Positions 16,815 to 27,150 of a stretch of 27,698 nt of DNA are shown piece after piece. The position numbers and the translations under genes were made by a program. Source of the stretch: a virus; the IMG/VR virus record IMGVR_UViG_3300048126_000041, positions 1 to 27,698 of that record; one strand, written 5' to 3'. The stretch's first letter is position 1. Each line of letters opens with the position of its first letter. The notes under the pieces are model-generated. The model searched no databases. It was not told the DNA's origin and was given only the letters and a program-made list of their open reading frames with translations.

Positions 16815-17888
16815 TTATGCTAAGTTGTATTTAGCTGTTACCAACGCTTCTGGGCGTAAAATCTTACGTCCGTATAAGTGCATACCACGGCAGATGTCAG
16901 CGAATGAATCTGGGTCACGGTAAGTCTCTGTTTTGTTGATTTGCTCTGCAGTTGCTACTGCTGAGTCATGTCCAGCTACGATAACACCGTAGTTAGCATT
17001 TTGGTTAGCTGTACCTGTTGTACCTGCGCCAGTACCTACTGCTGGTAAGTTACTTGAAGTATATACACGGAAACCGTGGAAGTTGTTCAAGACTAGACCG
17101 TTTCGTAATCCACCTGACTCACCGAAGTCTGCGTTAAACAAACGTGAATCTTCATCACGAAGGATTTCCATCATGATAGGGTCGAGTACAAGCCATCTAC
17201 CTGCAGTGTCTACTTGTTTTTGATCTAACAAACGGCCCATACGTGAAATCAACATTGCTGGTGATACATAGGCTGTTGGTAGAGCAGTTGCTCCTGGTAA
17301 ACGAGCTGCAACTGGAATCGCATGATCACCTGCTGAAGTTGTAGTAATGTTACCGAAGTCACCCTTTTTCAACTTGTTACCTGCAAGTAGTTCGTCTGAA
17401 CCAGCTGCTGAGTCAGCTTTAGTACCATTCACTTGGTCGTTAACTGCAGCTGCGTTAGCATGTAAAGCAGCTTGCTTGTAACCACTTAAGTAACCCAATA
17501 CTTCTTGGTCATGCTGATCAGCCAAGCGGAAAGCCGCACGGTTTGTAGCCATGTCCATGAAATTAACGTGAGAGTGTGCTTCTTCGATATCGTCGATTTT
17601 AAATGCAAAGTAGTTTGCTTTATCTACAACTAATGAGAAGTCTGTATCTGCTAAATCTTGTGCAGCAATAGTTGTGCCACGCTTGTACGCTGAAACGCTT
17701 ACCTCAGGTTCTTTGATAATTTTAACTGTATCACCTTGAGAAGCTATTTCACCGAAATAGTCAGAGTTAGTAATGTCGCCACAAACTGTGGACTTACGGA
17801 AAGCAAGTTGTACTTTCTTGGAATAGATAACTGAAGAAAAGTTACCATTCGGTAGGTTTGTGTAACCTGATGCTGATGCAAAAGCCAT
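16815..17888 (-). CDS. Major capsid protein (HK97-fold, 357 aa)
   Basis: The protein begins AFASASGYTNLPNGNFSSV, followed by a strand-rich N-terminal region (KKVQLAFRKSTVC; GDTVKIIKEPEVSVSAYKRG). A helix-containing spine-type segment follows (about residues 95-145), then an A-domain-like part (RWLVLDPIMMEILRDED, GFRVYTSSNLP) and a C-terminus ending GRKILRPEALVTAKYNLA. This matches the layout of P22-type/HK97-fold coat proteins of podoviruses in length and composition. It follows the scaffold gene, has its own consensus promoter with a leader of about 243 bases, an AAAGGA ribosome site, and a hairpin after the stop, all fitting a highly expressed product. Confidence 0.9.
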   Translation of the reverse strand: MAFASASGYTNLPNGNFSSVIYSKKVQLAFRKSTVCGDITNSDYFGEIASQGDTVKIIKEPEVSVSAYKRGTTIAAQDLADTDFSLVVDKANYFAFKIDDIEEAHSHVNFMDMATNRAAFRLADQHDQEVLGYLSGYKQAALHANAAAVNDQVNGTKADSAAGSDELLAGNKLKKGDFGNITTTSAGDHAIPVAARLPGATALPTAYVSPAMLISRMGRLLDQKQVDTAGRWLVLDPIMMEILRDEDSRLFNADFGESGGLRNGLVLNNFHGFRVYTSSNLPAVGTGAGTTGTANQNANYGVIVAGHDSAVATAEQINKTETYRDPDSFADICRGMHLYGRKILRPEALVTAKYNLA

Positions 17889-18189: not shown

Positions 18190-19104
18190 TTAACGAGCTT
18201 TGCCTGTTACGTCATAGACGAACTTACCAGAGGCCATAGCTGCTTGTATTTTATCGTAGTTATCCTCAAACTGTTTATCAGTCATTTTAGATACCTGAGA
18301 TTCTTTAATCATTTGGTTAGCACCATCACTATCTACAGCAGGTGTACCACGTTTAGTTACAGTCTTAGCTGCATCTTTGTTGGCTTTCTTTTTAGCTGAA
18401 GGGGTCATGTTGTTGTCTACTTTATACAAGTCAATAACTCTTACAACACTAGCTGCATCATCTGAGTTCTCATATAAGGCATCACGTACCCATTTAGGTT
18501 GGTCTTCTACCCAATCGTGAAACTTATCTGAGTCTCTTAACTCGTCAAAGTCTGAATGTGATTTACGAATAGTTGTTTCTGCTTTAGTTCTTTCTACTTC
18601 ATAAGCTGCTTCATCGTACTCACGTAGTCTTTCTTCTGCTACAGCAAACTTCTCATCTGCTTTCTTAGATGCAATAGTTTCTACTATAGCTGCTACGTCT
18701 GGGTACTTCTCTGCCCATGCTTCAATGTCTTCATCTGAACTAGGAGCTCTGAGGGGAGCTGATGTTTGTAATTCCATCTGCTCTTTCCATTCCTTCTCTT
18801 TGTCAGCCATATGTCGACGGAGATCACCATAACGCTTCTTGAAGGACTTCTCTTCTCTACTTAAGTTCTCATCAGACTCTTCTTCTTCTTCTGACTCTAC
18901 TGGTTTTTCTACTGGTGTTTCTGTCACTTCTTCAGAAGACTCTTCTTCTGCTTCTATTTCTACTTCTTCACCTTTATGCTCTGCTAACAAAGCTTCCAAT
19001 TCTTCCTCGTCTTTGTTCATACGAGACTGTTTAAGTGCGTAGTTAGTACCTCTTGACATCATTGCCTTGTTGGTGTCTACTTTTTTTACCATTTCTTGAG
19101 CCAT
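18190..19104 (-). CDS. Capsid scaffold protein (304 aa)
   Basis: Strongly charged: an acidic Glu-rich first third (about residues 28-80), then a helical Lys/Glu/Arg/Asp region, and a basic C-terminal half (SAKKKANKDAAKTVTKRG) ending FVYDVTGKAR. This is the classic make-up of phage scaffolds, which bind coat protein through the basic C-terminus and leave or are degraded during maturation. It lies directly upstream of the major capsid gene. I prefer the ATG at 19104 (AAGGA 8 bases upstream) over the in-frame ATG at 19113, which overlaps the ribosome site. No protease motif was seen. Confidence 0.8.
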   Translation of the reverse strand: MAQEMVKKVDTNKAMMSRGTNYALKQSRMNKDEEELEALLAEHKGEEVEIEAEEESSEEVTETPVEKPVESEEEEESDENLSREEKSFKKRYGDLRRHMADKEKEWKEQMELQTSAPLRAPSSDEDIEAWAEKYPDVAAIVETIASKKADEKFAVAEERLREYDEAAYEVERTKAETTIRKSHSDFDELRDSDKFHDWVEDQPKWVRDALYENSDDAASVVRVIDLYKVDNNMTPSAKKKANKDAAKTVTKRGTPAVDSDGANQMIKESQVSKMTDKQFEDNYDKIQAAMASGKFVYDVTGKAR

Positions 19105-19132
19105 ATTATACATCCTTTTGTTTATGTTGGGG

Positions 19133-23139: not shown

Positions 23140-24735
23140 TTAGTAGCCAAATGTGGGGTCAGACATCTGAAAGCCTGATCGTTGTGTAGCAGGGTCATAA
23201 TCCCAAAGTGATGATCGAGGTCTAGTCATTAAACCGTATCTTAGAGCATCGTAACCGTGATCAATGGGGCTCTTTGTATCTACGTCTTCTAGATTATTCT
23301 TATCAAGAGGAAGAGAAGGTAGTTCTGATATTATGTTACGACAAGTCTCAAAGAATACTAGTCTGGGTTGCTCTGTAAACTCGTCTACTTGTAATCTTCT
23401 GTGTATTTCGTTTTTACCTGCTATACGAGAGCCTTTTGATCTATCAGATGGCCTCCAACGACAACCTTTTTGTATCATTTGCTCTGCTAAACTAGGCCCA
23501 GTATCTCCTCGATTGTGCCACAAAGAACTATCTAGCACTCCATACCTTATTCTTTCACCAGACTCTATCTCTATAATCATGTCTGCTAAATCAGAGGCAG
23601 TAGTCTTATTAACATACAACTCTCTGTATATAACTATCTGTTCATCAGGAGCTACAGCAAACCACAACACCGCTGTCATTGAACCATAACCATAGTCACA
23701 AGCCCTAAACTTAGCCCAACTGTCTGGTATATCATATGGTTTAACTACATGCTTCTTAACACTAAACTCAGAAAAAGCTGAACCTTCTGATATACTCCAG
23801 TCACCGTCCAATAACTGTCGACGTTGATGCTCTGGCATTGATAGTAGATTAGCCTCGTACATACCATCTTCTGCTAGGTACGGATTATTAAATAAATTAG
23901 CAGGTATAAACCTACGTTTAAATAAAGGCTCACCTTCTCGTCTATGCCCTTTAGGCCAAGCTATTACTTCACCGTTTTCGTCAGTAGCGTGAAAAGCTGT
24001 ATTAGATGGTGCAGGGTCTATAAAAGTCTTCTTAACCCAAAAGTGGCCAGGGCCGCCAGGGTTTGTTGTTGCCCTCATGTAAAGAGGTAATTTGGAAGCA
24101 CTAGTAGCACGAAGACGTGATCTCATGTAGTTCCATGCAAAAGGAGAAGGCCACTGAGTAAGTTCGTCGAGCCCTATCCAATTAAAGGCCTGTCCCTGAT
24201 ATCTCATAACGTCATCATCTCTATCAAGGTATGACATCCATAGAGTAGCACCACTAGGGGCTACCCAAGTCTTATCTCTTTCCATAAACTTAATACCTGG
24301 GATAGCCCTTGGGTATAGCTGCTTAGATACTGAAATAAGTTCTCTTAATTCTTCTGTACTTCGTCTAACTAGTAAAGCTCTTGACTGTCCATTATTAAAG
24401 TAACGAACAGGGTCTGCAACCATTGCATACGATTTACCACCACCTGCTGCTCCACCATATAAAACTTCCTGCTCACTAGAAGCTAGGAAGTCTTCCTGAG
24501 GGCCAGGATTAGGTGCAAAGATAATATCTTGTGCTTTTTCAACATCTATAGGCTCTGGTTTAGGCTGTGCGTAGGTGGTAGTCGATTCAGTCTTCTCTAT
24601 CGAGTTTTCTTGTACTTCTACCACCGAGTCTTTCTTCTTCGATGACCCTTGCTTTTTCACTGGCTTCTTGGTAACGCCTTGCATAGTCTCTATGGGCTGA
24701 GGCCGTATACCTTCGTTTTTCTTCGATGCTGACAC
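23140..24735 (-). CDS. terL: Terminase large subunit (531 aa)
   Basis: The packaging motor ATPase-nuclease. Walker A GGAAGGGKS (residues 94-102), Walker B FNWIGLDE (184-191) and the coupling motif RATTNPGG (221-228) mark the ATPase. The nuclease acidic residues are Asp347 in RACDYGYG, Asp402 in GVLDSS and Asp492/496 in SPIDHGYDALRYG. The frame starts at GTG (24735) with AGGA 10 bases upstream; the next ATG (24684) lacks a ribosome site. The first 49 residues, Lys/Gln-rich and probably disordered, are encoded in a 149-base overlap with the preceding gene in another frame. It acts with the small subunit and portal to cut and pump DNA. Confidence 0.93.
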   Translation of the reverse strand: MSASKKNEGIRPQPIETMQGVTKKPVKKQGSSKKKDSVVEVQENSIEKTESTTTYAQPKPEPIDVEKAQDIIFAPNPGPQEDFLASSEQEVLYGGAAGGGKSYAMVADPVRYFNNGQSRALLVRRSTEELRELISVSKQLYPRAIPGIKFMERDKTWVAPSGATLWMSYLDRDDDVMRYQGQAFNWIGLDELTQWPSPFAWNYMRSRLRATSASKLPLYMRATTNPGGPGHFWVKKTFIDPAPSNTAFHATDENGEVIAWPKGHRREGEPLFKRRFIPANLFNNPYLAEDGMYEANLLSMPEHQRRQLLDGDWSISEGSAFSEFSVKKHVVKPYDIPDSWAKFRACDYGYGSMTAVLWFAVAPDEQIVIYRELYVNKTTASDLADMIIEIESGERIRYGVLDSSLWHNRGDTGPSLAEQMIQKGCRWRPSDRSKGSRIAGKNEIHRRLQVDEFTEQPRLVFFETCRNIISELPSLPLDKNNLEDVDTKSPIDHGYDALRYGLMTRPRSSLWDYDPATQRSGFQMSDPTFGY

Positions 24736-25064: not shown

Positions 25065-25553
25065 TTAGTACTTCTTTTTCTGAGTACCTGGGTTTGACGC
25101 TCCACAAGCAACGTAACCACCTTTTCCATAACCCATTCTCTTAGCTACTGCAGGTGCAGCTTTCTTAAGAGCCTTAATACCTTTATTCATTTTCTTTTTA
25201 GCCACACCACCATGATTATAACCAGACTTCTTCATGTCTGAGTCTTTCATCATCTTGCCGTCTGGCATCCTATGATAACCCTTCTTCATAACTACTCCTC
25301 CTTCGTTAGCTCTAAACTTAGCAGTCTTTTCTGCTATCTTACTTGGTTGTTTAACGAACTGTTTACCAGACGCTTTACCTTTACGTTTAGCAGCAGATGT
25401 TGCTGCGTATTCTTGACTTGTTAAGGCATCTCTGGCTGCTTTAGGTAAGTACCTTTCACCAGTAGCTTTCTTGCCTTGAGTAGATGGTTTACCTGACTTA
25501 GTACCCCACTTTTCTTTAGTCCATTTATTAAGTGATTTCTGAGGAGCCTTCAT
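25065..25553 (-). CDS. DUF5872-like basic protein with C-terminal CGASNPGT tag (162 aa)
   Basis: Residues 7-81 (KSLNKWTKEKWGTKSGKPS, then KKATGERYLPKAARDAL, EYAATSAAKRKGKASGKQF) match the pattern I know as DUF5872, a small Lys-rich domain of unknown function seen in phages and giant viruses. A Gly/Lys/Met-rich linker follows, containing MMKDSDM. The C-terminus KGGYVACGASNPGT (144-157) is identical to the end of the HNH protein at 26681-27007. The pI must be very high. A GGAGG ribosome site precedes the ATG, which overlaps the upstream stop (ATGA). A nucleic-acid-binding or DNA-condensing role is plausible but unproven. Confidence 0.7.
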   Translation of the reverse strand: MKAPQKSLNKWTKEKWGTKSGKPSTQGKKATGERYLPKAARDALTSQEYAATSAAKRKGKASGKQFVKQPSKIAEKTAKFRANEGGVVMKKGYHRMPDGKMMKDSDMKKSGYNHGGVAKKKMNKGIKALKKAAPAVAKRMGYGKGGYVACGASNPGTQKKKY

Positions 25554-25741
25554 TTCTTATAACCTCCACCTGCAGCTTTATATTGCTTAGCAAGCATTTG
25601 TGCTTTACGAGCTGACCATTGACCTGCTGCTCCACCTTTGCTTCCTGCTTTGATTTTAGCAAACAGTCTTTTGCGCATTGTAGGTTTTGTATAGTTACCA
25701 GACGCATTAACTTTACTTTTAGTTTTCTTTTTAGCTGGCAT
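25550..25741 (-). CDS. Small Lys-rich conserved protein (63 aa)
   Basis: A basic protein with a patterned sequence (KSKVNASGNYTKPTMRKRLF; GQWSARKAQMLAKQYKAAGGGYKK). The GNYTKP...GQWSARKAQ pattern recurs, to my recollection, in small proteins of marine phages and large eukaryotic viruses, without known function. It is coupled to the next gene by ATGA overlap and starts 2 bases from the previous stop. The charge suggests DNA binding. Confidence 0.7.
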   Translation of the reverse strand: MPAKKKTKSKVNASGNYTKPTMRKRLFAKIKAGSKGGAAGQWSARKAQMLAKQYKAAGGGYKK

Positions 25742-25742
25742 A

Positions 25743-26033
25743 TTACCACTTTACCTTATCAGCCCAGTAGGCAGCACTCATCTTACCTTTAGCAATGTTT
25801 TTTCTATGTCTAGCTTTGAATGATGCTCTTTTCTTTTTCATCTTTTCAGATTCACCTGCTTTAGGTTTACCTGCGGTACTAGCCCCTTGTTCCCCAAAAC
25901 GTATAGTCTTAATTTTGTCACCTTCTTTAGCAACAACAATATGGGACTTAGTAGGGTGGTTAGGGGTTCTCTTAGGTTTATTAAAGCCCGATACACCTGC
26001 TCTAGCTAGTCTAGGGTCTTTCTTAACTGGCAT
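25743..26033 (-). CDS. Small basic conserved protein (96 aa)
   Basis: Contains SGFNKPKRTPNHPTKSHIVV, a short beta segment with KTIRFGEQG, and SFKARHRKNIAKGKMSAAYW ahead of the final ADKVKW. This FKARH...NIAKGKMSAAYW pattern is a small conserved domain found in many unrelated phages, function unknown. Strong positive charge and the cluster of three such genes before the terminase suggest DNA-binding virion or packaging-associated proteins. An AAGGAAG ribosome site lies upstream; the start is one base after the previous stop. Confidence 0.75.
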   Translation of the reverse strand: MPVKKDPRLARAGVSGFNKPKRTPNHPTKSHIVVAKEGDKIKTIRFGEQGASTAGKPKAGESEKMKKKRASFKARHRKNIAKGKMSAAYWADKVKW

Positions 26034-26034
26034 A

Positions 26035-26403
26035 CTACTCTTCTTCCTTCTTTGCAGGTAAAATAAACACTGGTTCTACAGTAGATACTTCTACCTTCTC
26101 TGTCTTAACAAACCCTGCCCTGTCCATAAGGTCTTTAGCAGCGGTCATCTTTTCTTTAGCACCTAGCATGTCTACATCACCCATTACCTTGAACATTGTA
26201 TATGCAGCTTTAGTGGATGACTGTGCTATAAACTTACGAGTAAGGTCTGATATTTCGTCTACTAAGGAGGCTGTAACTGATGAAGTAGGGACATTGTCTG
26301 AGTACCCTGCTAGTTTCTTAGCTTTCAAAGGATCACCCTCTGCTTGTTCAAATAGAACAGCTAAGAATAACTCTTGCTTTTCTGTGAGGGCTCTTTTTGT
26401 CAT
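26035..26403 (-). CDS. terS: Terminase small subunit candidate (122 aa)
   Basis: The opening RALTEKQELFLAVLFEQAEG, then DPLKAKKLAGYSD, follows the classical small-terminase pattern (LT-x-KQ-x2-F ... A-x3-AGYS), where the N-terminal helix-turn-helix binds the packaging site. The middle helices (TRKFIAQSSTKAAYTMFKVM; KEKMTAAKDLMDRAGF) fit the oligomerisation core, and the C-terminus ends in PVFILPAKKEEE. I chose ATG 26403, which overlaps the upstream stop as TAATG and is preceded by GGAAAG, over an in-frame TTG at 26421. It would form a ring that recognises phage DNA and regulates the large terminase. Confidence 0.75.
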   Translation of the reverse strand: MTKRALTEKQELFLAVLFEQAEGDPLKAKKLAGYSDNVPTSSVTASLVDEISDLTRKFIAQSSTKAAYTMFKVMGDVDMLGAKEKMTAAKDLMDRAGFVKTEKVEVSTVEPVFILPAKKEEE

Positions 26404-26681
26404 TATTTTACTTCTTTCCAAGCTTCATTGATGTCTAATGTTTCTGGGTCATCGGCAATAAAGTGACCATTATCATCTCTAGCTCTTACATACTTCTTTT
26501 TATTTGGTTTTGTAACCTTTTTAGTAACAGAAACAATATCCATTATTTCTTTAATGCCACATATAAAAGAGCCGTAGGGGTCACACTGACCGACAACGTC
26601 TCCTCTTGAATTAACTACTTGATCTGCTGAGATATCGTATCCGATACTGTTCAAATCATCTTTATACTTACTTAAATCCAT
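26403..26681 (-). CDS. Hypothetical protein (92 aa)
   Basis: A small protein with an N-terminal segment reading like a compact domain (YDISADQVVNSRGDVVGQCD, then PYGSFICGI) and a basic middle (KKVTKPNKKKYVRARDDNG). No family recognised. The start overlaps the HNH stop by one base (TAATG) with AGAGG upstream, and its own stop overlaps the small terminase start in the same way, so it is locked into the packaging-region operon. Confidence 0.65.
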   Translation of the reverse strand: MDLSKYKDDLNSIGYDISADQVVNSRGDVVGQCDPYGSFICGIKEIMDIVSVTKKVTKPNKKKYVRARDDNGHFIADDPETLDINEAWKEVK

Positions 26682-27007
26682 TATTTACCTCTTTTGTGGG
26701 TTCCAGGGTTAGACGCACCACAAGCGACATAGCCGCCTTTGTTATACTTATGAGCCTGTGCCTTACGTGAAAAGCTACGATTAGCCCCTTTAGGCTGCAC
26801 TCTCAAATTCTTAACAGAATTATCGTTAGGGTTACGATTCTTATGGTCAACATCTTTACCATCCCCTTTTTTAACTAGTCCACCTTTTTCTAGCATACGC
26901 CTAGCTCTTTTACGAGAAGCATTAGCAGCTAAGTTAGACTTAGGTGATTTAAGTTGAAGAGCACGTTCTCTTTTATAATCTCTTTTATATCCTGGTGAAC
27001 TTGGCAT
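26681..27007 (-). CDS. HNH endonuclease-like protein with C-terminal CGASNPGT tag (108 aa)
   Basis: The segment DVDHKNRNPNDNSVKNLRVQ followed by PKGANRSF (about residues 53-80) carries the D-H ... N ... N-L-R-V pattern of HNH nucleases. The N-terminal half is basic (YKRDYKRERALQLKSPKSNL, RKRARRMLEKGG). HNH proteins next to terminase genes take part in DNA cleavage during packaging in HK97-type phages, so a packaging role is likely; a homing nuclease is less likely because the gene sits neatly in the operon. The C-terminus KGGYVACGASNPGT (90-103) is identical to that of the DUF5872-like protein. The start overlaps the upstream stop (TGATG) and lacks its own ribosome site. Confidence 0.75.
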   Translation of the reverse strand: MPSSPGYKRDYKRERALQLKSPKSNLAANASRKRARRMLEKGGLVKKGDGKDVDHKNRNPNDNSVKNLRVQPKGANRSFSRKAQAHKYNKGGYVACGASNPGTHKRGK

Positions 27008-27150
27008 CAGTAATCAAACACACATATAGAAGTTAACATTGTACCACTTTTTAATTGAACAGTTGCTGATATAGACGCAGGGTCTAAATTCCAACATCCA
27101 AAGCATTTACCGCAAGGCTTATCCTTGTCATTCCAACAGTAACCTAACAT
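27007..27150 (-). CDS. 47-residue cysteine-rich peptide
   Basis: A short ORF starting at ATG 27150, one base after the holin stop, with AAAGGA 6 bases upstream, and ending in TGA that overlaps the HNH start as TGATG. The N-terminal half has four cysteines in a tight pattern (Cys5, 13, 16, 19; CWNDKDKPCGKCFGCW), suggesting a metal-binding knuckle; a fifth Cys is near the end. CGKCxxC resembles the zinc-binding turn of QueC-type and other zinc proteins, but no homology can be claimed. Ribosome site, exact fit between two genes and motif argue that it is real. Confidence 0.65.
   Translation of the reverse strand: MLGYCWNDKDKPCGKCFGCWNLDPASISATVQLKSGTMLTSICVFDY

Follow-up and report, generated by a model that had tools for sequence, protein, structure and literature searches.

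A recurrent C-terminal peptide tag on unrelated small basic proteins of HMO-2011-type podoviruses

Why should two proteins with unrelated bodies end in the same peptide? The question is raised by the window analysed here, the whole 27.7 kb stretch of DNA of one virus record, which is a fragment of an HMO-2011-type podovirus. Descriptions of this phage type portray it as dominant and widespread in the sea. The terminase large subunit (TerL) of the window is 76% identical to that of Roseobacter phage CRP-13 and 67% identical to that of HMO-2011, which gives a range of 67-76% against HMO-2011 and the CRP phages, and its coat (phrog_267) and portal (phrog_332/1216) proteins both fit this assignment. 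The coat gene lies at 16815-17888 and the putative scaffold gene at 18190-19113.

Two window proteins with one ending

The two carriers are an HNH protein of 108 aa (ORF 26681-27007, minus strand) and a 162-aa protein of the family phrog_14910 (ORF 25065-25553, minus strand), with the tag KGGYVACGASNPGT at residues 90-103 and 144-157, respectively (Table 1). Translation bore out the initial annotation, which had reported an identical 14-residue peptide near both C-termini, followed by basic residues. It had also called the bodies unrelated, and they are: one matches HNH_3 (E 3.6e-6) and phrog_4590, whereas the other matches phrog_14910 (E 5.4e-31) over residues 1-81 only, a region covered by a profile of 80 positions. 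The label 'DUF5872-like' given to the second protein has to be replaced by phrog_14910, as no such Pfam match appeared even at E<=1. The silent DNA differences described between the tags affect 9 of the 14 codons, all of them synonymously. A degenerate DNA pattern for GGYxxCGA gave two matches in the window and none in 100 shuffles.

Table 1. Location of the tags, their carriers and the terminase genes in the window
Feature	Position	Strand	Basis
Tag KGGYVACGASNPGT of the HNH protein, then HKRGK and stop	26699..26740	-	Translation and codon comparison
Tag KGGYVACGASNPGT of the phrog_14910 protein, then QKKKY and stop	25083..25124	-	Translation and codon comparison
HNH nuclease body (HNH_3, phrog_4590)	26741..27007	-	Profile matches
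phrog_14910 body, residues 1-81, function unknown	25311..25553	-	PHROGs profile match
Lys/Gly/Met/Tyr-rich module (KKGYHRMPDG..KALKKAAPAVAKRMGY), spacer between body and tag	25125..25310	-	Comparison with CRP-603
Terminase small subunit (TerS)	26035..26421	-	phrog_2538, E 2.4e-5
Terminase large subunit (TerL), used as lineage marker	23140..24735	-	phrog_979, E 7.6e-59; CRP-13 76%

In AlphaFold, residues 141-162 of the 162-aa protein have a pLDDT below 50, within two models of low confidence built on shallow alignments (mean pLDDT 63.6 and 61.8). Such a low-confidence tail is consistent with a flexible, exposed peptide that is predicted to be disordered. A fold search with the 162-aa model found no relative (best E 2.6). 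Between the HNH and holin genes the window also holds a 47-aa cysteine-rich ORF (MLGYCWNDKDKPCGKCFGCWNLDP...; 27007-27150, minus strand).

Occurrence and conservation of the tag

A search for C-termini of the form GGY-x-x-CGAS found the tag on many phage proteins beyond the window pair. With DNA scans blind to reading frame, the core GG[YMV]..CGAS was recovered in hundreds of IMG/VR contigs, and the consensus reads GG[YMV](x0-3)[AV]xCGAS, after which come NPGT, xKP or YKG and then a short basic end. The exact-type pattern GGYVxCGASNPGT occurs in 43 IMG/VR contigs among the matches listed. The pattern KGGMxxCGA, which is blind to both frame and gene ends, had at least 120 IMG/VR matches, and 119 of the 120 listed reach a stop 13-21 codons on. 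Nothing upstream is required by CGASMKP; 106 of the 111 matches listed for it end their ORF 11-23 codons later, against a chance level of 17% of six-frame ORF codons, and most are preceded by GG[MYV], 0-3 residues and [AV]N. Some short ORFs are six-frame calls and not annotated genes. Exact CGAS is present in 174 of the 175 near-match tails listed, the remaining one ending in CGAD. The observation is real: this is a general C-terminal tag, borne by many phages of the group.

Internal NCGASVK or CGASMKP, with further lysine-rich modules after it, was seen at three loci (L051 5359-5520, which is phage CRP-212 gp49; L273; L297), so the C-terminal position is not absolute.

As judged from the sequences searched, the tag is restricted to HMO-2011-type podoviruses. 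Reading the C-termini of phage proteins identified the cultured isolates CRP-1 (gp65), CRP-2 (gp68), CRP-13 (gp65) and CRP-207 (gp67) as carriers, while HMO-2011, CRP-212, CRP-3 and CRP-738 have no CGAS tag at a C-terminus. A homologue of the window TerL, portal, TerS, coat or scaffold-position gene is carried by 242 of the 261 tag loci listed, the other 19 being mostly short fragments, and where the TerL match covers at least 200 residues identity to the window is 57-100%. KGGMAxCGAS had no match in 84,980 prokaryote (bacterial and archaeal) genomes; the looser KGGMxxCGAS had six in bacterial and archaeal genomes, chance-like and not resembling tagged genes. Five tag strings did not occur in the literature text searched, and tblastn of tag peptides against phage records returned one weak match or none, probably because of low-complexity filtering and the short length of the peptides.

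Could the tag be functionless, either a repeat produced by recent copying or gene conversion or a chance product of low-complexity sequence? The neighbouring sequence is rich in Lys and Gly and is shuffled in modules, which would suit such an origin, but silent sites are randomised while the amino acids are kept. HNH/phrog_14910 tag pairs differ on average at 6.3 of 12 invariant codons within genomes and at 6.1 between genomes, and independent codon choice predicts 5.85; the silent-site likeness expected of a duplicated or converted repeat is therefore not seen, and the codon comparison rules out recent gene conversion. In the two families the tag has an amino-acid identity of 0.97 and 0.96, and the 40 columns preceding it have 0.89 and 0.42. 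The residue between V and C of the tag varies independently within one genome (A/M, V/M, A/P). Because codons are as random as independent choice predicts and amino acids are 96-97% kept, the codon comparison shows a tag under selection as a protein, not one recently copied. The original proposal of identity kept at the protein level thus holds across genomes; far from being confined to two genes with matching silent sites, the tag occurs in hundreds of contigs with scrambled codons. With the motif also limited to C-termini on one strand in one gene block, a copied or chance origin is highly improbable.

Carriers, gene block and tag exchange

The loci listed yielded 225 non-redundant tagged proteins. 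Sixty are near-bare tag peptides with a Lys/Gly/Met/Tyr-rich lead-in, and the other 165 form 38 body clusters, 14 with several members and some of the singletons possibly artefacts of ORF-start choice. Tagged proteins have a median length of 112 aa and a median net charge of +18, and the cysteine of the tag is the sole cysteine in 198 of the 225. Their ends contain hardly any acidic residue and have repeated KGGM/KK units. One tagged gene was found in 40 of 45 records and two in some, and a reversed-pattern control gave none. A PHROGs search with two near-bare peptides (L104 and L184) matched no family.

Bodies also occur with other tails or with none. The phrog_14910 protein ends in CGAS in the window, in NTG in CRP-9 and L284 and in RKTGMF in L330, and it is untagged in HMO-2011, CRP-603, CRP-1 and L120; an HNH orthologue without the tag is found in L284 (2332-2574). 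CRP-603 encodes the body and the tag-type module separately, in neighbouring genes, and in the window they are fused. Across these alignments and clusters the tag behaves as a modular C-terminal short linear motif carried by unrelated bodies.

Several lead-in modules are shuffled before the tag (GMKALKKxAPxVAKKMGY, KGLxKLPxxVRNKMGYM, HKMPDGTMMKDSD, CPKCKGKGCSHCGGKGYH and GKKVPAFAADGxGKM), and standalone tag peptides include L071 116-289, L080 4321-4560, L184 9344-9511 and L172 1712-1903. In L131 (2688-3287) the phrog_14910 protein has an extra N-terminal segment (GGKHSARAMQLAGKLYKAAGGKY) like the adjoining phrog_17747 gene (window 25550-25741), a fusion which suggests that small genes of the block fuse repeatedly. 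Related basic proteins without CGAS have a cysteine at the very end, in KGGMAKKGC or KGGMTKKGKC (L188 3845-4171, L393 1540-2454).

The suggestion that tag carriers always lie near terminase genes holds wherever TerL is present, in that all 226 tagged genes lie upstream of it on the same strand (205 tag loci listed with a TerL match) at 0.3-5.6 kb (median 2.2 kb), but a few are placed shortly behind the coat gene. These few are in L271, L283 and L292, at about 0.5 kb, and a relative of their tagged body lies near TerL in L144. Among loci selected by TerL (the best-scoring 80 of about 600), CGA[SD] ends were found on 22 of 1155 upstream ORFs, on none of 1197 downstream and on 2 of 3203 on the opposite strand. 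The CGAS tag is present in 17 of the 42 of these best 80 that have at least 3 kb upstream (~40%). By their gene order, tagged genes sit in late structural/packaging blocks.

Many TerL-selected loci without CGAS have NTG or RKTGLF endings at the tag position. The second motif, S[TS]GxxNTG[IV], sometimes ending GIKGCE, is borne in the HMO-2011-type group by phrog_14910 and further bodies encoded some 2-3 kb upstream of TerL (L048 3566-4048, L284 3336-3794, L328, L360, L364), and the same gene block encodes further small basic proteins with a third motif, D[MY]R[KT]TGLF[KR] (L048 4048-4743, L334 507-1058, L336, L385, L104, L145). Strict exclusivity of CGAS and NTG, which at first seemed indicated (Fisher p 4e-4), is not claimed because L284 has both, on adjacent genes.

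On a 114-row TerL tree, about 21 changes are needed to account for the presence and absence of CGAS. L284 and L334 share 97% DNA identity over 2.6 kb from TerS to TerL, with TerS 100% identical. The gene that lies about 2 kb upstream nevertheless differs in its ending, CGASMKP in one and RTTGLFR in the other. Comparisons of this kind show that tags are exchanged between close relatives, and a swap beside near-identical terminase genes makes a partner that co-evolves tightly with terminase unlikely.

Possible role of the tag and comparison with known systems

The tag may be a modular C-terminal docking or sorting peptide, and our leading though tentative reading, in line with the prohead sorting first proposed, is that it loads variable basic cargo into the head. 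It would dock its carriers to a partner common to the lineage, most probably scaffold or coat on the inside of the procapsid. Variable basic carriers, the HNH nuclease and the phrog_14910 protein among them, would thereby be packed into the head and might also be injected, in the manner of T4 internal proteins with their capsid targeting sequence. Head loading is favoured for its likeness to that sequence and to encapsulin cargo-loading peptides. The tag is not essential to the lineage, because only about 40% of the TerL-selected loci carry CGAS and some isolates, HMO-2011 itself among them, lack it. A single tagged gene in most records is weak for a general cargo system, and fast switching of tag class is awkward for a conserved head protein as partner unless several tags can be read. 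It is more doubtful, if conceivable, that HMO-2011-type phages own a C-terminal head-cargo code, in which CGAS, and perhaps NTG and RKTGLF, would mark exchangeable small basic proteins, a nuclease among them, for loading into the capsid and transfer to the host.

Other partners would account for parts of these data. The tail might instead dock to a host factor and so recruit small late proteins to RNA polymerase, the nucleoid, a membrane, a protease or a defence protein; rapid switching of tag class would then mirror host change or an arms race. Basic carriers with predicted disorder suit such docking, as do the roughly 20 switches of tag class along the TerL tree, which occur even between phages that are nearly identical, and the ability of CGAS, NTG and RKTGLF to occupy the same gene position; but one core recurs across numerous contigs from separate samples and in phages cultured on different host strains, and the carriers are encoded in a late structural/packaging block, which leaves a host partner an unlikely though serious candidate. 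A tail with no specific protein partner, whose basic residues bind phage DNA and whose single cysteine links or caps by disulfide or metal, would make the carriers DNA condensers or phase-separating proteins. The charge of +18, the KGGM/KK repeats, the frequently sole cysteine and the scarcity of acidic residues near the end speak for such a tail. Unspecific binding needs no invariant CGAS, however, and RKTGLF and most NTG relatives have no cysteine, so that this explanation is rather improbable.

Other phages (HK97 gp74 type) also have small HNH genes next to terminase, and together with the constant place upstream of TerL these would fit docking to terminase or portal. The swap between L284 and L334, on identical TerS and nearly identical DNA, and the 21 CGAS changes on the TerL tree both speak against it; docking of the tag to terminase, one of the roles first proposed, is disfavoured and a terminase or portal partner very unlikely.

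Whatever its partner, the tag predicts a common destination and names the proteins that would share it. Most genes of HMO-2011-type marine phages have no known function, and the tag is a direct handle on dozens of orphan proteins.

Among known systems, bacterial sorting signals (LPXTG, PEP-CTERM, GlyGly-CTERM) were rejected by inspection, since the hydrophobic stretch before a basic end is absent from all tails listed. The HK97 gp74-type HNH is alike as a small HNH gene in a terminase block, but here the constant element is the tag and not the HNH fold, as the untagged orthologue in L284 illustrates. Encapsulin cargo-loading peptides are C-terminal, of about 10 residues, and common to unrelated cargo encoded near an HK97-fold shell (PMC7355545). 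The CGAS tag is likewise a C-terminal peptide common to unrelated proteins. Encapsulins, however, are cellular compartments and not virions, and their peptide sits in a hydrophobic pocket, whereas the tag is basic and hydrophilic; its genes are coat-adjacent in L271, L283 and L292, and mostly lie about 2 kb upstream of TerL.

The capsid targeting sequence of T4 is a short conserved terminal peptide on diverse small basic proteins made with the head genes (PMC3012670). It is N-terminal and cleaved, while the CGAS tag is C-terminal, has an invariant CGAS and no shared proteolytic site. A look for virion proteomics of the group turned up none, and the texts of PMC9038755 and PMC6918029 do not mention proteomics. 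In both, the peptide is found on otherwise unrelated proteins (here the 38 body clusters and 60 near-bare peptides), and the CGAS carriers are similarly small, basic, lysine-rich, variable and swapped, as between L284 and L334. If the tag truly directs head loading, the concept of exchangeable injected proteins known from T4 would reach a dominant group of ocean phages, and P22-like capsids could be loaded with proteins by means of a small tag.
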